Positions 15,622 to 25,533 of a stretch of DNA of 37,816 bases are shown piece after piece. The notes under the pieces are model-generated. The model searched no databases. It worked only from the letters and a program-made list of their open reading frames with translations, and had not been told where the DNA came from. Position 1 is the first letter of the stretch, and each line of letters opens with the position of its first letter. The stretch is from Alphaproteobacteria bacterium (lineage in GTDB: Bacteria > Pseudomonadota > Alphaproteobacteria > Sphingomonadales > Kordiimonadaceae). The position numbers and the translations under genes are program-made. The DNA is taken from NCBI GenBank assembly GCA_006226495.1, contig SBGU01000018.1:1-37816 (forward strand), read 5' to 3'.

Positions 15622-16395
15622 CTACAGGAATTCGGTCTGGATATAGGCGAGGAAGTCGCCCATGTCCTCGGGGAAATGTTCGCGCCCGGTGCGGATGATA
15701 CGGACATCGGAGGGCAGGCCCTGCAGGCCCGGATGGTCAAGCGGAAAGCTGGTCAGAACCCCGATGGGTTTGTCGGCGGTCACGGTCATGGCCTTGAAGG
15801 CACGGGCCAGTTCGGCGCCCGACAGTTCATCCAGGGTCTGGGCAAATACCATGGCGTCGGGTTGCGAGCGGACCGCAAGCTGGAAGGCTTCCATGGCGCC
15901 CGTCGCGCGCACCACGCGGAAACCGCACTGCATCAGTTCGTTACGCACGATCTTGGAAATCATCTTGGAGGGCGACACCAGAAGCACCTCCACATCCAGC
16001 ACCTTGATGTCGAAACCGCCGGCCTGCGCGCTGATTGGCAGGGCCCTGAGGAGCTGGGCGATATGCTGGGACGACGGCTCGCGCCCCGTGGACACGATCT
16101 CGCGGATCTGGTCGCAATATTTGCCGATGCCGCCGATCAGGTTCGCATCCAGATGGTGCGCACCATCCAGATAGTCCTCCAGCCGGTGGGCGATGGTGCT
16201 GATGATCGGATAGCCGACCGACGCGGCGCTGCCCTTGATCGAATGGATATGGCGGCGGATTTCCTCGAACGCCTGGTCCGGGTTGGCCGTGCCCTGCAGG
16301 CTCTGGTTCGCGATGGCCTCAATGGCGTCCAGGCTGTCCTCGGACGCTTCAAGGAACTCGGTCCTCAGTTTATCTATGAGCGATTCTTCAATCAT
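15622..16395 (-). CDS. Hpt domain protein with degenerate receiver
   Basis: This 257-aa protein combines an N-terminal histidine phosphotransfer domain (about 1-110), with the phosphorylatable motif 'HSIKGSAASVGY' near residue 50, and a C-terminal receiver-like domain (about 130-257, starting 'DVEVLLVSPSKMISKIV'). In the second domain the acidic pocket is replaced by 'VSPSK', and the phosphoacceptor position reads 'PDAMVFAQ' where a receiver has 'D.lLlD', so it looks phosphorylation-incompetent. It lies 58 bases downstream of a CheY-like gene on the same strand, and the two are likely partners in a phosphorelay whose kinase is not in the window. Confidence 0.8.
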   Translation of the reverse strand: MIEESLIDKLRTEFLEASEDSLDAIEAIANQSLQGTANPDQAFEEIRRHIHSIKGSAASVGYPIISTIAHRLEDYLDGAHHLDANLIGGIGKYCDQIREIVSTGREPSSQHIAQLLRALPISAQAGGFDIKVLDVEVLLVSPSKMISKIVRNELMQCGFRVVRATGAMEAFQLAVRSQPDAMVFAQTLDELSGAELARAFKAMTVTADKPIGVLTSFPLDHPGLQGLPSDVRIIRTGREHFPEDMGDFLAYIQTEFL

Positions 16396-16453: not shown

Positions 16454-16864
16454 TTAATCGAACAGGTCGTCTTCAAGGGGTGCGCCATCTTCCGCCGCGG
16501 CGTCCTGCTGCCGTTCGAGAATGGCACTGACCAGACCGGGGAATGCCTGATCCAGCGGTTTGGGGATGAAGTCGTCGCAGCCGGCGACCACAGCGTTCGC
16601 CAGGTCTTTCACCCGTTCGCTGCCGGTCAGGGCGGCGATCAGGCCCTTGTAACCCTTGGCGCGCAATTGCTGGGTGGCGGCATAACCATCCAGTACCGGC
16701 ATGTCGATATCCATAAGGATCAAATCCGGCGCAATTTCCTCCGCCAGTTTCATGCCCTCAAGACCATTTTCGGCTGAATAAACAGTATGACCGATATCGG
16801 TCAGATAGGCGGCCACCAGTTTGCGGATCACACTATCGTCGTCAACATGCAGGATTACACTCAT
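16454..16864 (-). CDS. CheY-like single-domain response regulator
   Basis: This 136-aa receiver domain has a complete active site: acidic pocket Asp8-Asp10 ('HVDDDS'), phosphoacceptor Asp52 ('LILMDIDMPVLDG'), Thr80 ('AALTGSE') and Lys102 ('FIPKPL'). There is no output domain; an acidic tail of about 20 residues follows. It sits upstream of the Hpt/pseudo-receiver gene and probably exchanges phosphate with it. Single-domain regulators of this type act by protein contact or as relay intermediates. The divergent 503-aa gene shares its promoter region. Confidence 0.9.
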   Translation of the reverse strand: MSVILHVDDDSVIRKLVAAYLTDIGHTVYSAENGLEGMKLAEEIAPDLILMDIDMPVLDGYAATQQLRAKGYKGLIAALTGSERVKDLANAVVAGCDDFIPKPLDQAFPGLVSAILERQQDAAAEDGAPLEDDLFD

Positions 16865-16989: not shown

Positions 16990-18501
16990 TTGGCGCGCCC
17001 GAAATCAGACAAAAAACAGCCGGACGAGTCGGCAGGCAGGAAAACGCCGTCGGCGCTGGTGTGCAGCAAACCGGAACATTTGCTCAGGCCCGATACGGTG
17101 GCCTTTGTCGGCAATCTGGTCCGGCCCTGGCTCGAACAGCATAAACTGAGCCCCTACGAGCTTCTGTGCCGCAAGGACCTGGCGACCGAGTTCCGCAACA
17201 ATGCCACCGTGTTCAATTCGGCGGTGCGCGCCGCAGCCGGCCTGCAGGCCGACCCCATGGGCGCAGATACCGCCGTGCGCCAGCGCGAACTGGAGGCCTA
17301 TCTGCTTGACTATCTGAACGGCCTGGGCGGCACCAATGCTGCGCTTCTGGAAGGCGACCAGGACGGCGAAGGCGCCAGCTATTCGGCGCTGATCGAAGCC
17401 GAGGGCGAGGGGCCGGCACGCCGGCGGCTCATTGGCGCGGTTGCCGCATTCCTGCGCGATTCACCCAGTTATGGCACCAAGGTAGAACGCCTGCTGGCGC
17501 TTCTGGAACAGTGCCGCAACGACGATGTGCGCGCCGTGCTGGACGAATTTTTCGCGAGCTTCATCAAGCTCGATGCCGCCCGCAACGACACCTTCATCGA
17601 CGAGGACAATGCCTTTTCGCTGTTGCAGGATTTTGTCGGCCTGATTTCGGCACAAGCGATGCCGCGGCGCGGTTCGTGCCGTGTGGTGCAGCGGCTGAAT
17701 TATATCATGTCGCGCTTCAACCTTGTGCATATGCGCGAGGCGTTCCAGTGGGCGTTTGAACATATCATCACCAACAGCCGCACCTTTCCGTCGCCCGGCA
17801 AACTGCAGGGCCACGACCATGTGACCTGGGAACTGGTGGAACTGTCGAAGCTTTACAAGAAGATGCAGGTGGCGGGCGGCTGGTTTGCCAATGCGGCCCT
17901 GATGGAAGCCATGGAAAACCAGGTGGCGCGCCGGACCGGCGCCTTGCAGCTTGATGCCATGGTGGCCGACCATGCCGGCGTGTTCAACAAGACGCTGGAG
18001 CTGATCAAGCTTTACCCGCTCGTGTTCGGGCACCGCAATGTCGCGCGCATCGAACGCCGCATTTACGAGACCATCACCCGGCACGACCTGTCCCGGCTTC
18101 TGGAACAGTTTGCCCGCTCGCCCATGGACCAGTTGGCGCAATATGGCATTCTCGAGCAAAAGATCCGCAAGGCCAACATGGGCCCGCGGGTCACCGACGA
18201 GATGGTCGATTATCTCGCGCGCCTGCAGGAAGCCTTCATTCGCGACCGGCAGGTGTTCCACAAGTTTCGCGCGCTGCGCACCGCCACGGAAGAAAAGGGG
18301 CTCTATACGCTTGAGCTCCTGATCCTGGGGGCCTTCACGGCGGGCCGCTGCCGGCGGGCGGCTATCAAGCTGATGCTGCTGTTCCTGCCCAGCAAACAGC
18401 GGCTTATGGAAGCGATTACCGAGACCAAGGGCATCGAAATCGCCGAAGACCGCACCGAAGAATTGTGCGCCATGTACGACTATTTTGTCGCCAGCATGTA
18501 G
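16990..18501 (+). CDS. Uncharacterised 503-aa cytoplasmic protein
   Basis: I do not recognise this family. The protein is 503 aa, largely helical in composition and without signal peptide or membrane segment. It starts with a basic, lysine-rich stretch (1-20), followed by 'TVAFVGNLVRPWLEQHKLSPYELLCRKDLATEF'-like helices. A central region holds 'SCRVVQRLNYIMSRFNLVHMREAFQWAFEHII', and the end is acidic. The TTG start at 16990 is supported by AAGGAT eight bases upstream. Codon use is GC-rich like the core genome, so it is a resident gene, not part of the AT-rich segment that begins after it. It is divergent from the CheY-like/Hpt pair, and a link to that relay is only a guess. Confidence 0.75.
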   Translation: MARPKSDKKQPDESAGRKTPSALVCSKPEHLLRPDTVAFVGNLVRPWLEQHKLSPYELLCRKDLATEFRNNATVFNSAVRAAAGLQADPMGADTAVRQRELEAYLLDYLNGLGGTNAALLEGDQDGEGASYSALIEAEGEGPARRRLIGAVAAFLRDSPSYGTKVERLLALLEQCRNDDVRAVLDEFFASFIKLDAARNDTFIDEDNAFSLLQDFVGLISAQAMPRRGSCRVVQRLNYIMSRFNLVHMREAFQWAFEHIITNSRTFPSPGKLQGHDHVTWELVELSKLYKKMQVAGGWFANAALMEAMENQVARRTGALQLDAMVADHAGVFNKTLELIKLYPLVFGHRNVARIERRIYETITRHDLSRLLEQFARSPMDQLAQYGILEQKIRKANMGPRVTDEMVDYLARLQEAFIRDRQVFHKFRALRTATEEKGLYTLELLILGAFTAGRCRRAAIKLMLLFLPSKQRLMEAITETKGIEIAEDRTEELCAMYDYFVASM

Positions 18502-18717
18502 CTCCTTCTGGGGTAAAAAAGCGGCTCGATTATTATTTTCAAGGTCTCCCGCTAAGCCAAGCTGCGGAGTCGTGAACTTGGCCATTTAGTTGTATTTTTT
18601 CTATCTTGGGTGTGGAGTTCGAGGTAGGTTAGGGTGCGCTTTGGGAATCCTTTGACATACTTCGGTCAGTATTTCGAAAAGTCGACGTAGCATATTCAAT
18701 GGTTAGGTGGATGTGAC
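18502..18717 (+). promoter_or_regulatory. AT-rich leader of the foreign segment
   Basis: Base composition shifts sharply to AT after the 503-aa gene. A TTGACA box at 18652-18657 overlaps a perfect dyad ATACT-N6-AGTAT (18657-18672), a layout expected for a repressible promoter. I could not place a convincing -10 at the standard distance. AGGTGG precedes the ATG at 18718. Confidence 0.35.
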
Positions 18718-19281
18718 ATGTTGGAAGATATCGCCGGTGACAAGTCTCAAGTGGCTATTGTGCTCTCGATAGTAGCGTCTCTGTTTTCTGCGCTCAGCTT
18801 GGTCCTGAATGTATTCTTCCGACGGCACTTGATATCATATAAACGTCAAAATGAAATAATGTTGCATGACGCATTAGAGAAAAGAAAAAAAAGTAACAAG
18901 AGCGCAGAGGAAAAGAAGAATCGAACTCACGAAATTACAACGCATTTACAGCACTTTCGGGACTATTGCCGAATGGTGGTCAATAGCGCAGCGGTGCAGG
19001 GTCTTGACGGTGCCGAGATGGCGGAGGGGCTCGAAACGCATGTCAGAAATATAGAGAAAGCATATTCTCTGATGTTGCCACATTTTCCGCGGCAGGAATT
19101 GAAACCTGCGCATGATGCCAAGCGCCTATCTTGGGATATTACCATTTTCTTAAATAAAAAGACCGATCAAAATGGGAATATTAGACGTTTTACAGCTAGG
19201 GATCGCACAAAAATTGACGGTTATCTTGAGCAATTAAAGAGTTACCAAGATGCGCTTCAGGTTATGGGGCTCATGCTATGA
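18718..19281 (+). CDS. Membrane-anchored coiled-coil protein, partner of receiver-HATPase
   Basis: I do not recognise a family for this 187-aa protein. Residues 11-34 ('QVAIVLSIVASLFSALSLVL' and following) form one membrane helix, and residues 40-75 are highly charged, lysine/glutamate-rich and probably coiled coil. The rest (80-187) is a soluble, mostly helical domain, likely cytoplasmic because the post-helix segment is basic (FFRRH). The last codon overlaps the next gene by four bases (ATGA), so the two are translationally coupled and probably form a complex. Codon use is AT-rich, unlike the flanking genes. It may be the sensor or anchor for the receiver-HATPase protein; that role is inference. 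Confidence 0.65.
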   Translation: MLEDIAGDKSQVAIVLSIVASLFSALSLVLNVFFRRHLISYKRQNEIMLHDALEKRKKSNKSAEEKKNRTHEITTHLQHFRDYCRMVVNSAAVQGLDGAEMAEGLETHVRNIEKAYSLMLPHFPRQELKPAHDAKRLSWDITIFLNKKTDQNGNIRRFTARDRTKIDGYLEQLKSYQDALQVMGLML

Positions 19282-20966
19282 CCAAGCGCAACTTAAATGC
19301 CCTCCTGTGGGTTGACGACGAACCGCAAAACAATGCCGAAATAGCTGACGACATTAAAAGCGCAATTGCTTGTTCTATAGATTACGCTGTTACGATTTCC
19401 AGTGCTGTCAGGAAACTAAAAAAGAAATCATACGTATTTCTCATTCTTGATAGCCTTTTACCAGCAGGGTCTGAGGCGATTTTATCCAACGAAGTTGGCG
19501 TTACGATTGGGAGTCAAAGTGATGCAGGGGGTGTTTTGCTTGAGCACCTTGCGGACGGAAAACTCAGTGGCAAAATTAGGCAGGAGAAACTTAGAGGTGT
19601 CATATTTTGCTCCGCCGTTGCGGTCTCTGCCCGGGTCAATCGGGTTTTGAAGGAGCGAAAGCTGCCTGTGCTTGTATTGCCTAAGCGCGAAATAATCATG
19701 GAGCGAACCAAGGCTATTCAGACGTTACGTAAGTTTTGTGAAAGCTGTTTGCTGGCGCCTCCGCTGAAAATTGTTCCAGACGCTTTACCGGATACGCTAT
19801 TGGTGCTCCAGCAACGCCTTGATCCACCCGCCGCAAAAAAACCTGCAGATGTCTGCTTAGCTGACGATGAGCAAGACGAAGACGAGGTTGGAGATGTCTG
19901 CATAGCTGAGGTTGAGCAAGACGAAGACGAGGTCGGAGATGTCTGTTTAGTTGACGACGGGCAAGACGAAGATGAGGTAAGGGGGCACATACATCAGCAA
20001 AATCAAGTTATGCACAAGATAGTAGCCACGCAAGGCGCTGCGATTGACTTGATTTCAAAATATGTCCTTGAGTACGAAAAAAGTCCACTTTTTACGTATA
20101 AGGAAATTCTCTATAAGCCGATTGAAGAAATAGAGCTTGAGATTGATGCACTTGTCGACGTCTCAGCTACAAAAGATCTCAGATCTTTAGATGAAATTGA
20201 CGATCTTTTTGGTCGCCTAAAAAGAGCGGTAGATAACACTCCGAGTTCCAATACTGTTCATATACGGCGCCTGCTAGAGGAAATGCAAGAGAGGGCAGGT
20301 CGCCGCTTTTCAAAGTTGCAGGCAATCCTTGATGGTGCGCTCAAAGCCATTGTTTTTGCGGAATTGTCTGCAAGTTTAAAAGACGTGCGTTCCATGGCGT
20401 TTTCGGCGATCGAAGACAACAATAGATTCATTGACCAAATGTATGGTGGCGTGGACGGACACCAAAGTATTGAGGAACTCGATCTCGTCCAATTTATGGA
20501 TGCCAGGATCAGGAATTTTGAACCCAAAGCAAATAAGAGGAACTGCCATATCCGCCGCTACGCCTGTCCGCCAATTGTCATGCGTTTAAATCATGTGGAC
20601 CTGAATACCGTTGTGAACAACTTGTTGGATAACGCCATAAAGCACAGTTTTATGATGCCGACAGAGACAGCTTGGATAGTGCTACAGTTAACCTCAAACG
20701 GAGATGGGACTGCGAGTCTTTCTGTAGAGAGTTGGGGTGCGCAGATAAAGCGCAATGAAGATATTTACGCTGCCAATGAGAGAGGGAGTGAGTCCCTCGC
20801 TTCTGGTAGTGGACAAGGACTGTATATCTCGAAGAAATGTTGCGAACGGAACAACTGGTCTTTGACGCATACCTCGGTTCAAGCGAATCCTAAAGGTCGG
20901 GCAACTAGGGTGCAAAGAAGGGTCGCTTATATTAATACGTTTACAGTTGTTTTACATGAACATTAG
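19278..20966 (+). CDS. Receiver-HATPase fusion protein of unusual architecture
   Basis: This 562-aa protein has an N-terminal receiver (1-145) with acidic pocket 'WVDDE' (12-15), Asp58 in 'FLILDSLLP', Ser112 region and Lys136 in 'VLPKRE'. A linker (146-330) carries three 15-residue acidic repeats (191-235). The C-terminal GHKL ATPase (about 400-562) has N-box 'VVNNLLDNAIKHS' (Asn448, Asn452), a G1-like 'VESWGAQI' and G2 'GSGQGLYISKK' (510-520). No H-box (HE-x-R-TP type) is visible between linker and ATPase, although 'AELSASLKDVRSMAFSAIED' (361-380) sits where a dimerisation domain would be. It may be a receiver-gated ATPase instead of an ordinary kinase. It is coupled to the upstream membrane protein and AT-rich, which suggests transfer. 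Confidence 0.8.
   Translation: MTKRNLNALLWVDDEPQNNAEIADDIKSAIACSIDYAVTISSAVRKLKKKSYVFLILDSLLPAGSEAILSNEVGVTIGSQSDAGGVLLEHLADGKLSGKIRQEKLRGVIFCSAVAVSARVNRVLKERKLPVLVLPKREIIMERTKAIQTLRKFCESCLLAPPLKIVPDALPDTLLVLQQRLDPPAAKKPADVCLADDEQDEDEVGDVCIAEVEQDEDEVGDVCLVDDGQDEDEVRGHIHQQNQVMHKIVATQGAAIDLISKYVLEYEKSPLFTYKEILYKPIEEIELEIDALVDVSATKDLRSLDEIDDLFGRLKRAVDNTPSSNTVHIRRLLEEMQERAGRRFSKLQAILDGALKAIVFAELSASLKDVRSMAFSAIEDNNRFIDQMYGGVDGHQSIEELDLVQFMDARIRNFEPKANKRNCHIRRYACPPIVMRLNHVDLNTVVNNLLDNAIKHSFMMPTETAWIVLQLTSNGDGTASLSVESWGAQIKRNEDIYAANERGSESLASGSGQGLYISKKCCERNNWSLTHTSVQANPKGRATRVQRRVAYINTFTVVLHEH
19848..19982 (+). repeat. Three in-frame 45-bp tandem repeats
   Basis: Three 45-base units (19848-19892, 19893-19937, 19938-19982) encode DVCLADDEQDEDEVG, DVCIAEVEQDEDEVG and DVCLVDDGQDEDEVR. 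They form an acidic spacer with one cysteine per unit between the receiver and the ATPase part. The high nucleotide identity indicates recent expansion. Confidence 0.9.
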
Positions 20967-21566
20967 TGTGTGGATATCTTTCCCCAAATTTAGCATTTCA
21001 CGTTCGCAACCCGTCCCGATAATTTCTAAGGTCCTTGACGATTTAATATGGTCTCGCCACGGCACTTCGGTGTAGCCTACTTGCAGTGCGGCTTCGCGGG
21101 CGTTTGCCATATATTCCCGATGATCAGAGACCACCCTGAGGCTACCTCCGTCCGTCAGTACCTGGCGAGTCCGCTGCAGAAAATGCGGCTCGAGTAGGCG
21201 CGAGCGTACCTTCCATTCCACGCCATCAGGTATCTGAAGCGATCGTATATATGGTGTCGGAAAATAAACATGGATAGCGGATATACTTCGAAATCGCACA
21301 GACGTTTCCAGAAAATACCTACCTTCGGAGGAAAGGGCTAAAGCGTTGGGCAGGTTGTGGAAATTCAGCGACGCTGCTAGCCTTGAAAGTGATCTGCTGT
21401 TTATATCCAAGCCAACATAAGCATTGTCGGGGTGCTGTCTCGCTGCTGCGATCAAAAAACCTCCCAAGCCACACCCAATGTCTAAGTGTAGTTCACGATA
21501 TTCTCTTTTGCCAAAGAACTTGGGTACATCGGGGTGGCTAATTGCGTCAGGTACCTGAATCACCAT
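20952..21566 (-). CDS. TrmB-like SAM-dependent methyltransferase
   Basis: This 204-aa class I methyltransferase resembles tRNA (guanine-N7)-methyltransferase TrmB. The SAM motif is 'LHLDIGCGLGGFLIAAARQHPDNAYVGLDIN' (about 27-57), and the TrmB-type 'IHVYFPTPYIRSL' replaces the usual 'I...FPDPWPKKRH'. It is followed by 'RLLEPHFLQRTRQVLTDGGSLRVVSDHREYM'. The loss of the PDPWPKKRH box suggests an altered substrate. Its 3' end overlaps the convergent receiver-HATPase gene by 15 bases. The ATG at 21566 has GGAG only two bases upstream; a GTG one codon later has better spacing. Codon use is intermediate and the gene appears to belong to the accessory segment. Confidence 0.75.
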   Translation of the reverse strand: MVIQVPDAISHPDVPKFFGKREYRELHLDIGCGLGGFLIAAARQHPDNAYVGLDINSRSLSRLAASLNFHNLPNALALSSEGRYFLETSVRFRSISAIHVYFPTPYIRSLQIPDGVEWKVRSRLLEPHFLQRTRQVLTDGGSLRVVSDHREYMANAREAALQVGYTEVPWRDHIKSSRTLEIIGTGCEREMLNLGKDIHTLMFM

Positions 21567-22280
21567 ACTCCAAGAATATCTTATGTCAGAAATTTACGCT
21601 ATTTCTACGTCGATCTATTTCGCTCACCAAGTGCAAACCCAACTATGAAGTGGCGGCTTGTCGCCCCGCTGCTGATAAAAGGTCTGCCCCGCCAGCACAA
21701 AAGCATCTGGCCTTTTTCTGAAGAGTCTCTCTCACTGTCGCGACGGCCTACAATACTGCTATCGGCCCCAACAAACAGATGGTGATGCCCCGTAATTTGC
21801 TTTATATAACGGGGCGCAAAATGGCCATGGGCGCAAGGAGCGCAAGGGCCCGTCCGGGCTTGTGCATTCCTTAATACATTTGTGCCAAGATTTGTTTTGT
21901 CCGACATCAAAATGGGCGCCGAGGATGGCATGAGCTTCATCCTGTTAAAGCATGAAAATACCCGGCAAGCCGCATGCGCGGCCTGTATCCCTGCCTTTCA
22001 TGGTGCGCTGGCCGCGCCGGGCCGGGGCTAGGGCATTTGGGGCCGTCGGACATTTTCGTGCCGTGATGCGCAAAAAATTTCAAATCCAATCAAGAGCTTA
22101 TGCCATGCGGCCAGAATGTCGCCGTGGAATGGTCATATTACCGGCCTGCTCGGCCTTTATTAAAAATCAGGACGGGTAGAATATAGATGCCCAGTTGTGT
22201 GACCGTGCGTACCCGGCAGGTGGAAAACCGTCGGGTTTTGGTGGTGGCAAGGCGCCCGTTCAATATGGAGAAGCCGGCAT
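21567..22280. other. Gene-poor right flank of the accessory segment
   Basis: These 714 bases have no reading frame I would call a gene. A hairpin GCCCCGT-N15-ACGGGGC lies at 21787-21815. Frames at 21605-21940 (-) and 21952-22179 (+) are open but match nothing I know and lack good ribosome-binding sites. Composition moves back to GC-rich toward 22200. The stretch may be the remains of decayed mobile DNA at the border of the insertion. Confidence 0.5.
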
Positions 22281-23717
22281 ATGCAGGATGACCGACAGGA
22301 TAACAATGTGCCCGACGATCTGGGTGAAGACCAGGGCAGGGACCGCGTGTTCATGCTCGTCTCCCTGACCGGGCTTTTGCTTCTGGTGTTCCTTGTCGGC
22401 GCCATGTCAGTGGTTGCGGGCTTTTTCCCGGGGCCGGAAATCAAGCGCGCCTATATTGGCGGCATGGCCTGGTACGACAAGCTGAACCATCAGCAGAATG
22501 TCTATGAAACCGACCTCTGGACCACACCGCGGCATGACGCCAAGGGGGTTACGGTGAAGATCGGGGCCCGCATGCAGCCGGGGCTGACCCTCTATACCTC
22601 GGGCGACGCGCCGGCGGCGTATCTGATCGATGCAGACGGCAATCTGCTGCATGAATGGCGGCGACCGTTTTCCAGTTTCCATGAAGCCGGCGACGGTGGG
22701 CCCGAACATCCGCAGCCGGACGAATTTGTGCATTTCCGCCATGCGCGCGTGCTGCCGAACGGCGACCTGATCGCGCTTTATGAAGGCACGGGCGACACCC
22801 CATACGGCTATGGCCTGGTGAAGCTGGACAAGGATTCCAACATCCTCTGGAAATACACCGGCTGCGCGCACCACCAGTTCGATATCGCGCCCGACGGCCG
22901 CATCTTCGTGCTGACCCACGCCATTATCGACCAGCCGGCGCCGGTGTTCGGCAATCTCGCGACCCCGCGCATCGAGGATTATCTCGTGATCCTGTCGCCG
23001 GACGGGCGCGAACAGAAAAAGATCGCGCTTCTGGACGCCGTCGGGCGCTCCAAATACCGGCAGCTTGTCTATGCGGTGTCCGAATTCTCGAAGGCCGATC
23101 CGCTGCATACCAACACGGTTGCCTATATCGATGCCGAAAGTGCGCGCAATTTTGCGGTCGGCCAGGAAGGCCAGATATTGCTCAGCTTCCGGGAAATCCA
23201 TTCGATCGCTGTGCTTGACCCGGTAACCGACGAACTGGTGTGGGTTGCCAAAGGCGGTTGGATGGGCCAGCACGACCCCGACATTCTGCCAAACGGCAAC
23301 ATCCTGCTCTTCGACAATTTCGGCAATTTCAATGCGCCCGAAGGCAAGTCCAGGGTGATCGAATTCAACCCGGTCACGATGGAAATTGTCTGGCAATACA
23401 AGGGCACACCGGACGCGCCGTTCGAAAGCGTGATCCGGGCCGACCAGCAGCGGCTTGCGAACGGCAATACCCTGATCTCGGAATCGTCGGGTGGCCGCAT
23501 CCTCGAAGTGACGCGCGAAGGTGAAATCGTTTGGGAATTTGTCAATCCGGCCCGGGGTGGCGTCGGTGCCAAAAAAGCGCCGATCATCGCATGGTCCATG
23601 CGGCTCGATCCGGACATGTTTGAAAAGGCAGACTGGCTTGGCGCCGCCATGCCGGCAACCGCAACACCAGAAACCCCTGTGGACGACAGGCCGCAGGGCA
23701 AGGAGATGTCACAATGA
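22281..23717 (+). CDS. Membrane-anchored arylsulfotransferase (ASST)-like protein
   Basis: This 478-aa protein has an acidic N-terminal tail, one membrane helix ('VFMLVSLTGLLLLVFLVGAMSVVAGFF', about 23-50) and a large domain outside the membrane with repeated 'LIDADGNLLHEWRRP', 'VLPNGDLIALYEG', 'ILPNGNILLFDNFGNF' and 'RLANGNTLISESSGGRILEV' segments, the beta-propeller pattern of the arylsulfotransferase (ASST/Arylsulfotran_2) family. True ASSTs move sulfate between phenols without PAPS, using a catalytic histidine; 'CAHHQFDIAPDG' and 'HDPDILPNGN' are candidate sites. GGAGAAG precedes the ATG. It is the first gene of a four-gene operon that ends in a PAPS-type sulfotransferase. Activity is inferred; some relatives have unknown function. 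Confidence 0.75.
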   Translation: MQDDRQDNNVPDDLGEDQGRDRVFMLVSLTGLLLLVFLVGAMSVVAGFFPGPEIKRAYIGGMAWYDKLNHQQNVYETDLWTTPRHDAKGVTVKIGARMQPGLTLYTSGDAPAAYLIDADGNLLHEWRRPFSSFHEAGDGGPEHPQPDEFVHFRHARVLPNGDLIALYEGTGDTPYGYGLVKLDKDSNILWKYTGCAHHQFDIAPDGRIFVLTHAIIDQPAPVFGNLATPRIEDYLVILSPDGREQKKIALLDAVGRSKYRQLVYAVSEFSKADPLHTNTVAYIDAESARNFAVGQEGQILLSFREIHSIAVLDPVTDELVWVAKGGWMGQHDPDILPNGNILLFDNFGNFNAPEGKSRVIEFNPVTMEIVWQYKGTPDAPFESVIRADQQRLANGNTLISESSGGRILEVTREGEIVWEFVNPARGGVGAKKAPIIAWSMRLDPDMFEKADWLGAAMPATATPETPVDDRPQGKEMSQ

Positions 23718-23956
23718 AAAAGCTTCCGATCCTGATCGCGGCGCTTGCCGTGACCACCGTAACCGCGTCGGCCAACGCCTATGTTGGCCCGGGCGCGGGC
23801 CTCAGCCTCCTGGGCGCGCTGTGGGCGCTTCTCTTGGCGCTCATTACCGCCATCGGTTTCATTGCCGCCTGGCCGGTGCGCAAGTTCCTGCGCCGCCGCA
23901 AGGCCAAACAGGCCGCCGCCCGCCAGGCAAATGGCGCGCAGCCGCGCCAGGGGTAA
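23714..23956 (+). CDS. Small membrane protein in sulfotransferase operon
   Basis: This 80-aa protein has a Sec-type N-terminal signal ('KLPILIAALAVTTVTASANAYVGPG'), one further membrane helix (about 30-55, 'LSLLGALWALLLALITAIGFIAAWPV') and a strongly basic tail (RRRKAKQAAAR). The 'AYVGPGAGLS' sequence after the signal is a recurring feature of small proteins beside ASST-like genes, from general recollection. AAGGAG precedes the ATG, which overlaps the stop of the preceding gene by four bases (ATGA). No enzymatic motif is seen; an accessory or complex-forming role with the neighbouring membrane proteins is likely. Confidence 0.75.
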   Translation: MKKLPILIAALAVTTVTASANAYVGPGAGLSLLGALWALLLALITAIGFIAAWPVRKFLRRRKAKQAAARQANGAQPRQG

Positions 23957-23962
23957 TCCATC

Positions 23963-24433
23963 ATGCTCATGGAGCTTCTCGATCTGCCGGCGCCCCTGTT
24001 CGCGGCTCTCGACAATGCCGTGGCGCCTGTGCTGCCGGCGGTGGCGCGGCTGGCCCTGTGGGCGCTGATGGCATCGGTCCTGACGATGGAAATCTACCGC
24101 CTGACCTCGCCGCAAGAGCGCATTGCCGCCCTGAAGCTCAAGTTCAACTTCGCCAAGGCACAGCTTGATGCCTTCGATGGTGACTTCGAAGACGCCTGGC
24201 CGCTGATGCGCCGCATGCTGGGGGCCGCGTTTGGCCGGGTTGCCATTGTTTTGCCCGGCACCCTTGTGGCCGCGCTGCCGCTTCTGTTGCTGATCGTCTG
24301 GATCGACACCGCCTATGCGCACGCGGATGTGCTGGGCTTTGGCCCCCTGTGGCTGCGCGGCTGGGAAACATCCTTCATCGTCTTCATGACCATCCTTGCG
24401 CTCGGCTATAAACACATCAGGCGCATTCAATGA
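23963..24433 (+). CDS. Two-helix inner-membrane protein, unknown function
   Basis: This 156-aa protein has membrane helices at about 28-44 ('LPAVARLALWALMASVLTMEIY') and 90-107 ('VAIVLPGTLVAALPLLLLIVWID'), with a soluble loop between them containing 'LKLKFNFAKAQLDAFDGDFEDAWPLMRRMLG', and a third weakly hydrophobic segment near the end. I do not recognise it by name. It lies six bases after the preceding small membrane-protein gene and overlaps the sulfotransferase gene by four bases, so all four genes are surely one operon. Confidence 0.7.
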   Translation: MLMELLDLPAPLFAALDNAVAPVLPAVARLALWALMASVLTMEIYRLTSPQERIAALKLKFNFAKAQLDAFDGDFEDAWPLMRRMLGAAFGRVAIVLPGTLVAALPLLLLIVWIDTAYAHADVLGFGPLWLRGWETSFIVFMTILALGYKHIRRIQ

Positions 24434-25533
24434 GCGGCACCATCGAAATCGACGGCTGGAACGACCGGGTCGGCGCTTTTGTCGAACGCCACCCGGGCCT
24501 GGCCACCTGGCTTGGCAATATGGAAACCCGGCTGATGGCGGACGACCTGGCCACTGTCGCCATCGACCGGCCCATCTATGTGGCCGGGGTCGCGCGTGCG
24601 GGCAGCACCATCCTTCTGGAACTCTTGGCGCGGCACAGCGCCACCGCCAGCCACCGCTACCGGGATTTCCCGCTGGTGCTGGCGCCGGCGGCCTGGTCCT
24701 GGTTTGTCGACCGTGCGGGCCGCGCCGACGGCACGGCACAGGAACGCGCACACAAGGACCGCATCAAGGTCACGCCTGAAAGCCCGGAGGCGTTCGAGGA
24801 ACTGGTCTGGATGCGTTTTTTCCCGCACCTGCATGATGCCGACCGCGACGCCGTGCTGGACGCGGCGGCACAGAACCCGGCCTTCGAGGCCTTCTACCGC
24901 GACCATATCCGCAAGATACTGCATCTGCGCGGCGGCCAGCGCTATCTGGCCAAGGGCAATTATAACGCCACGCGGCTCCGGTATCTGCGCAGCCTGTTCC
25001 CGGACGCGCGTTTCCTGATCCCGGTCCGGCATCCGGTGTGGCATGTGGCGTCCCTGATGAAACAGCACCGCCTGTTTGCGGATGCGGGCGGCGACGACCC
25101 GCGCATCGCCCGGCACCTGCGCCGCAGCGGCCATTTCGAATTTGGTCCGGGCCGGCGCGCGATCAATGTCGGTGAAGGCACGGCGGCAGAAATCCATGCG
25201 CTGTGGCAGACGGGCGCGGAGGCCGAAGGCTGGGCGCTTTATTGGGCCAGCGTCTATGGCCTGGTTGCAAACCAGTTGGACCAGGATGCCGCCCTCAATG
25301 CCGCCACCGGCATCGTGCGCTATGAAGACCTGTGCGATGCCCCCGAAGCGACATTCGGCGCCGTGCTCGAGCATGTCGGTCTGCCCGCTGAAGGCCTGCC
25401 CGCGCTCGCCCGCGAAACCGTCAGCGCGCCCGACTATTACCAGCCCGATTTCACCGAAGCCGAACTGGCGGCCATCCACCGCCGGGTCGCCGGGGTCGCC
25501 GCGCGCTACGGCTACAGGCTCGAAAGCGACTGA
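24430..25533 (+). CDS. PAPS-dependent sulfotransferase family protein
   Basis: This 367-aa cytoplasmic protein has the 5'-phosphosulfate-binding loop 'VAGVARAGSTILLELLARHS' (about 52-71; compare family 'R(S/T)G(T/S)T.L') and a probable 3'-phosphate region around 'RFLIPVRHPVWHVASLMKQH' (about 195-215), as in Sulfotransfer_3-type enzymes. These transfer sulfate from PAPS to small molecules, lipids, glycans or peptides; the acceptor is unknown. It is translationally coupled to the preceding membrane protein. The combination with an ASST-like protein and membrane helpers suggests a pathway for making and then moving a sulfated compound at the envelope. It converges on the DUF547 genes with only six bases between. 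Confidence 0.8.
   Translation: MSGTIEIDGWNDRVGAFVERHPGLATWLGNMETRLMADDLATVAIDRPIYVAGVARAGSTILLELLARHSATASHRYRDFPLVLAPAAWSWFVDRAGRADGTAQERAHKDRIKVTPESPEAFEELVWMRFFPHLHDADRDAVLDAAAQNPAFEAFYRDHIRKILHLRGGQRYLAKGNYNATRLRYLRSLFPDARFLIPVRHPVWHVASLMKQHRLFADAGGDDPRIARHLRRSGHFEFGPGRRAINVGEGTAAEIHALWQTGAEAEGWALYWASVYGLVANQLDQDAALNAATGIVRYEDLCDAPEATFGAVLEHVGLPAEGLPALARETVSAPDYYQPDFTEAELAAIHRRVAGVAARYGYRLESD

Follow-up and report, generated by a model that had tools for sequence, protein, structure and literature searches.

In the window analysed here, a stretch of 37,816 nucleotides that makes up one whole contig (SBGU01000018.1) of an alphaproteobacterial genome of the Kordiimonadaceae (GCA_006226495.1, 4.3 Mb in 60 contigs), a low-GC island carries two overlapping genes, P0001 and P0002. 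P0001 encodes a single-pass membrane protein. In the P0002 product, a divergent receiver domain is followed by an acidic repeat linker, a helical region and a histidine-kinase-type catalytic ATPase (CA) domain of the GHKL type. With a probability of about 0.5, the pair is predicted to function as a horizontally acquired, degenerate or diverged receiver (Rec)-controlled kinase together with a co-translated membrane partner. This reading is supported by the ATGA overlap of the two genes, by alignment, family and structure matches of the CA domain, by the absence of an H-box in profile searches, by the helices of P0001 and by GC content at third codon positions (GC3). ExsG, CheS3 and LvrB are precedents for a receiver that controls a linked kinase.

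P0002 would descend from a histidine kinase of the Rec-controlled type. Phosphorylation of D58 in its receiver by a partner kinase of the same cell would alter the packing of the helical middle of the protein, and the altered packing would either free or lock the kinase-type ATPase domain. As the classical phospho-histidine helix would have degenerated or diverged past recognition, the output may be ATP-dependent conformational signalling or the phosphorylation of a non-standard histidine. P0001, the most likely partner given translational coupling, would anchor P0002 at the membrane. If P0002 is an active receiver-gated ATPase without a histidine of its own, the CA domain of sensor kinases would be reusable apart from its dimerisation helix, whether it served as a switch or phosphorylated the membrane partner in trans. 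The features of the pair are as follows.

18718..19281, plus strand: P0001, 187 amino acids (aa), single-pass membrane protein
19278..20966, plus strand: P0002, 562 aa, receiver, acidic repeat linker, helical region and GHKL (CA) domain
19278..19772, plus strand: divergent receiver domain of P0002, residues 1-165 (D13, D14, D58, S112, K136)
19844..19978, plus strand: three in-frame 45-bp tandem repeats in P0002, acidic 15-residue linker unit
19995..20462, plus strand: helical region of P0002, residues 240-395, neither H-box nor DHp detected with profiles, long helices modelled with low confidence
20463..20882, plus strand: histidine-kinase-type CA (GHKL) domain of P0002, residues 396-535, N box intact, first glycine box degenerate

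Gene arrangement and origin of the island

The two genes lie where a first-pass annotation of the window had placed them, and their reading frames of 187 and 562 aa share the ATGA at 19278-19281, which is the usual sign of translational coupling. They are taken as genes rather than chance frames because, in Markov-1 simulations of the 3.7-kb island (n = 300), an open reading frame (ORF) of at least 187 aa appeared in 8 and one of 562 aa in none, and because P0002 matches HATPase_c. The AT-richness noted at first pass was borne out both by GC windows and by GC3. GC is 0.44-0.54 in the 1-kb windows touching approximately 18.5-22 kb and 0.55-0.67 in the remaining windows, while GC3 is 0.46 in P0001, 0.46 in P0002 and 0.49 in P0003, against 0.65-0.81 in the 15 other genes of the window. 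P0003 is the third gene held by the low-GC stretch:

20952..21566, minus strand: P0003, TrmB-like methyltransferase gene, same low-GC island, convergent to P0002

The flanking proteins were searched in 31 genomes each (the own genome is counted in this and in every other n of the genome searches), and besides the own genome they were present in one relative only, G010. In G010 the block at 15.6-18.5 kb borders another gene, the block starting at 22.3 kb is found on a separate contig, and P0001, P0002 and P0003 are not in the stretches of G010 read around both blocks. Since the island is low in GC and GC3 and is absent from relatives, its foreign origin by horizontal acquisition is well supported, in line with the transfer between genomes that had been proposed from composition.

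Relatives were sought in whole-genome samples from the phylum of the host, and in GTDB and viral sequences by short exact peptide patterns. Full-length P0002 gave matches in 9 of 59 genomes (E<=0.001), with the non-self matches inside residues 303-548 and no orthologue. With residues 1-429, matches were limited to 2 of 385 genomes of the class, namely P0002 itself and an ordinary response regulator, and with residues 1-165 they were found in 38 of 398 genomes of the phylum at a loose E<=0.1 (best non-self E=0.001). Residues 240-562 matched in 5 of 339 genomes of the phylum (E<=1e-6), non-self matches falling only in residues 393-534; among the five proteins matched, an H-box pattern is present in L111, L113, L114 and L115, and none by pattern in L112. 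P0001 matched in 9 of 376 genomes of the class (E<=0.05, best non-self 0.0014), again with no orthologue. No relative of P0001 or P0002 was found in plasmids, phages and viral contigs, nor one of P0002 in Escherichia coli genomes searched at the DNA level, and the pattern scan of GTDB contigs returned one ordinary kinase and no orthologue of P0002. Two matches at E<=10 were weak and were set aside, one to an ordinary regulator in Persicobacter and the other, at E=2, to a hypothetical Vibrio phage protein. The first-pass annotation had said that absence of the two-gene pairing elsewhere would overturn it. A second copy was indeed absent from everything searched, mostly the host's own phylum; the pair may be rare or diverged, or the sampling too limited, and distant relatives were possibly missed.

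Domains of P0002

The ATPase of P0002 is a histidine-kinase-type CA domain. Pfam HATPase_c passes its cut-off (E=1.1e-8), kinase family models such as PorY and PhoR match from residue 397 on, and residues 396-534 align to a kinase-core alignment with an hhalign probability of 98.5 (11 entries, equal to 10 distinct kinases, L010 being left out for a wrong frame and L007 for having no H-box). The best PHROG is phrog_857, a phage-protein family of unassigned function (E=6.7e-12, residues 397-530). Because receiver and CA fragments were misplaced when aligned to the full protein, the fold was limited to residues 240-546 and modelled with kinase rows over the CA domain only, to leave the helices unbiased. 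Block-mean predicted local distance difference test (pLDDT) values reach 72-90 over residues 400-489 and 71-90 over residues 510-546 but drop to 42-54 in the ATP lid (residues 490-509), and the five models average from 60.1 down to 42.1. Foldseek matched the model to 183 PDB chains at E<=0.001 with HK853 first, and the 50 best of the 183, which include HK853 and LvrB (8vc9), are all sensor kinases. The CA domain of ThkA is also among the matches (template modelling (TM) score 0.77 of target). The N box (NNLLDNAIKH, N452) and the glycine-rich box GSGQGLY are intact. The GHKL ATPase described at first pass as joined to the receiver is upheld, but its first glycine box, VESWGAQI, is degenerate, with S485 for the usual Asp and Q489 for the usual Gly.

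The putative phosphoacceptor D58 of the P0002 receiver aligns with the same residue in six receivers encoded on viral contigs. These six also share D13 and D14, but they were selected by the motif that contains both residues. S112 and K136 stand at the expected positions of the conserved Ser/Thr and Lys. The full set of active-site residues claimed for this domain is present when identified by eye, but the Response_reg match is weak and the gap between D58 and S112 is longer than the spacing of standard receivers. The 45-bp repeats that follow are perhaps a length-variable linker. Receivers with the motif WVDDxPxNN recur in viral contigs, in 11 of 13 stretches found by pattern (L078, L080-L087, L089 and L090); ten are lone receivers with a membrane helix apparent by eye (four of them identical copies) and one is fused to a 1211-aa protein.

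Between linker and ATPase, no H-box with a phosphoacceptor histidine was found in P0002 with Pfam profiles and a DHp hidden Markov model (HMM), and hhalign is confident only from residue 396, which confirms the lack of a recognisable H-box domain seen at first pass. The HMM, built from 17 DHp sequences (one of 18 was dropped as near-identical), scores 2.3 bits against residues 240-400, equalled by 37 of 500 shuffles. Neither a standard DHp domain at residues 340-400 nor homologues of the ordinary hybrid-kinase kind, the outcome the first-pass annotation had said would overturn it, was recognised; that part of the protein shows no H-box and is modelled as helices at low confidence. The CA domain is preceded by two helices that run into it, at residues 323-340 and 346-388 (block-mean pLDDT 42-51).

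These helices bear on an alternative under which P0002 is an ordinary active Rec-histidine kinase with the layout of LvrB or ExsG, its DHp fold intact but diverged and a residue such as H328 phosphorylated. H328 lies 124 residues ahead of N452, close to the 120-residue spacing of HK853, and the two long helices running into the CA domain are obtained from AlphaFold2 even without DHp rows. Foldseek, moreover, aligns the model along the whole kinase cores of HK853 and LvrB, and one protein matched in the genome searches, L115, is an ordinary N-terminal-receiver kinase with the H-box AHEVRTP. However, H328 (TVHIRRLL) has neither an acidic neighbour nor the usual H-box context, the DHp profile stays at shuffle level, and looser hhalign runs place the H-box elsewhere, at approximately residues 296-303, with a Lys opposite the His and without support. 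Most of the helical part is also modelled at a pLDDT under 50, and the long alignments over kinase cores show root-mean-square deviations of approximately 8-23 Å, with one of 32.6 Å. An ordinary active kinase is considered unlikely, and a merely diverged Rec-kinase would be a modest addition to a known class. A kinase-like protein with a CA domain and no H-box by pattern is encoded in a genome of the same order (L007, 433-1815), and is possibly another histidine-less kinase relative.

P0001 and its relation to P0002

P0001 has one transmembrane helix at about residues 12-33, with a net charge of -2 in the flank before it and +5 in the flank after it. By the positive-inside rule, an N-out/C-in orientation is predicted, with a cytoplasmic C-terminal part. 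In the best AlphaFold2 single-sequence model, helices span residues 3-55, 63-90, 98-119, 125-147 and 160-186 (mean pLDDT of the five models 76.0, 71.6, 51.7, 47.9 and 47.6, the first being the best). The last four are probably a cytoplasmic bundle rather than a simple coiled coil, a reading that draws in part on the presence of bundle proteins in the Foldseek results for P0001. No Foldseek match of P0001 reaches E<=0.001 in PDB or in viral models. Thus, of the one-helix coiled-coil protein first described, the single transmembrane helix is retained, but the remainder is modelled as four helices. Likeness to the sensor bundles of KinB (target TM 0.67), LytS and NarQ was taken as generic. Family matches to RIC1 (E=0.0037), sigma-factor models (E=0.003) and a holin PHROG (E=0.008) are weak and inconsistent, and lie under the cut-off wherever a cut-off exists. 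PADLOC gave no match for P0001.

A split kinase is a further alternative, in which the CA domain of P0002 would phosphorylate H71 of P0001 and the receiver of P0002 would take the phosphate or gate the reaction, so that receiver phosphorylation would decide whether P0001 gets phosphorylated. P0002 has no H-box of its own, the genes appear translationally coupled, and H71 lies in THEITTHL (HEITT), which resembles an H-box, 19 residues ahead of the end of the second helix; its pattern (H[ED][LIVMF].[TN]) is shared by 21 of 40 kinase-like ORFs compared with 29 of 383 others. The pattern was, however, chosen after the fact and also occurs in 514 of 20,000 shuffles of P0001; the DHp profile, which does not align at H71, gives P0001 1.3 bits (equalled by 95 of 500 shuffles), and P0001 has no Pfam Hpt or HisKA match. 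The motif may be regarded as a weak lead only, and a split kinase as quite improbable.

Several points also weigh against the reading of the pair as an acquired, diverged Rec-controlled kinase with a membrane partner. Response_reg matches only residues 10-63 of P0002, at E=0.042 and 14.5 bits against a cut-off of 30.2. ATP binding by P0002 is possible yet not assured: it is not assured because the first glycine box has neither the usual Asp nor the second Gly, and still possible because L002, a kinase in the comparison, has an Asn at the same Asp position. Block-mean pLDDT in the helical region is 33-52, mostly below 50, and the five models of P0001, like those of P0002, spread widely in confidence. 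An interaction of P0001 with P0002 is suggested solely by the overlap of their genes, and as no homologues were found, no residue could be put to a test of conservation.

Known systems, defence and neighbouring genes

The N-terminal position of the receiver had been called uncommon at first pass. The available text of the ExsG paper agrees (PMC3899027), but Rec-controlled histidine kinases are described as frequently found in that of the LvrB paper (PMC13269768), and CheS3 is a further case (PMC3868531). ExsG and CheS3 resemble P0002 in having an N-terminal receiver and a C-terminal kinase core under its control; autokinase activity of ExsG is reportedly inhibited by receiver phosphorylation (PMC3899027), and the receiver mutant of CheS3 has a phenotype opposite to that of the kinase mutant (PMC3868531). 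Both differ from P0002 in their HWE-type cores with a phosphorylatable histidine, and in the text available for either a coupled membrane protein is not described. LvrB, from Leptospira, shares with P0002 an N-terminal receiver, a helical middle and a C-terminal kinase-type CA domain, and its structure 8vc9 is among the matches of the 240-546 model. Phosphorylation of its receiver is described as causing the central helices to form a coiled coil and the catalytic domains to be freed (PMC13269768). LvrB has a DHp with catalytic H161, whereas P0002 has no H-box, an acidic repeat linker and a coupled membrane-protein gene.

A receiver joined to an ATPase without a DHp, presented at first pass as uncommon, also has a described counterpart in LvrC, a proposed anti-sigma factor in which a Bergerat domain comes after the receiver, and for which the available text mentions neither a DHp nor a helical region before the ATPase such as P0002 has (PMC13269768). 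LvrC is RsbW/SpoIIAB-like (PMC13269768), whereas the ATPase of P0002 aligns with sensor-kinase CA domains and lies approximately 230 residues from the receiver. No RsbW/SpoIIAB-type Bergerat domain was recognised after the receiver of P0002, a conclusion drawn from kinase matches (the family matches and the 50 best fold matches are sensor kinases) rather than from direct comparison with RsbW. Thus, receiver-first kinases and receiver-ATPase proteins without a DHp are already described, and the layout is not new in itself. Unusual here are the kinase-type CA domain without a recognisable H-box, the acidic repeat linker and the coupling to a membrane protein.

The Response_reg_2/HEF_HK pair also combines a diverged receiver with a kinase-like GHKL protein, but these are separate genes with a conserved histidine, predicted to be soluble and linked to restriction-modification, according to the part of the paper available (PMC8011034). 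Supposing both to be in the Pfam copy used, PF19192 and PF19191 are not among the matches of P0001 and P0002 at E<=1 or E<=10. Detocs (PMC11249213) likewise combines a GHKL ATPase with receiver domains within a single operon. Its loci comprise three genes, one of them for a receiver-nucleosidase protein, where the present pair has two, with receiver and ATPase in one protein and a membrane partner.

The pair had also been proposed as a candidate defence module, a role that is not supported. P0002 matches the PADLOC models PDC-M60B (20 bits) and PDC-M60C (14 bits), in its receiver part only. These are taken as nonspecific receiver matches because an ordinary lone receiver nearby (16454-16864) matches the same PDC-M60B model (17.6 bits, and SduA at 20.2 bits). 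This lone receiver is the ninth of the flanking proteins, and the other eight have no PADLOC match at E<=0.001. P0003 matches mad2 at 36.9 bits, confined to the methyltransferase domain. The PDC-M60B model is itself loose: at E<=1e-5 it finds matches in 98 of 249 genomes of the phylum and in 5 of 14 controls. PDC-M60 is presumably Detocs, and membership of the pair was rejected, given two genes instead of three and 20 and 14 bits for P0002 compared with 69.4-76.9 bits at the three best PDC-M60B loci. L045, L046 and L047, reached via PDC-M60B, encode a large GHKL-like ATPase, a lone receiver and a third, receiver-bearing protein; this set resembles Detocs and is presumed to be Detocs, the third protein presumably carrying the nucleosidase part. 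An anti-phage module, with P0001 predicted as a membrane-acting effector released by P0002 as receiver-ATPase sensor, is very improbable: the unit is isolated, horizontally acquired and contains a membrane protein, Detocs-type loci also combine receivers with kinase-like ATPase domains, the best PHROG of the CA domain is a phage-protein family, and the legend of the predicted-systems figure in the DefensePredictor paper lists HATPase and REC (without discussion in the section text available), but the PADLOC matches are weak and nonspecific, no defence system was recognised beside the pair, the flanking proteins scanned included no recognised phage or mobile gene, phrog_857 covers a domain common to kinases, and the nucleosidase effector and third gene of Detocs are absent.

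No plasmid DNA matched 21560-22280, and 18000-22600 had no match in Rfam. P0003 overlaps the end of P0002 by 15 bases and is probably cargo of the island. It scores 79.1 bits against TIGR00091 (cut-off 112.65), and its Pfam family is matched elsewhere in the genome, better on contig 13 (126.3 bits) and more weakly on contig 24 (49 bits). Directly upstream of the low-GC stretch, on the minus strand, are an Hpt-domain protein (15622-16395) and the lone receiver (16454-16864), in a block whose DNA is also present in the relative G010; these two could be phosphorelay partners supplied by the host. On the other side, an arylsulfotransferase-like gene and then a sulfotransferase-family gene occupy 22281-25533, and the same stretch is present in G010.

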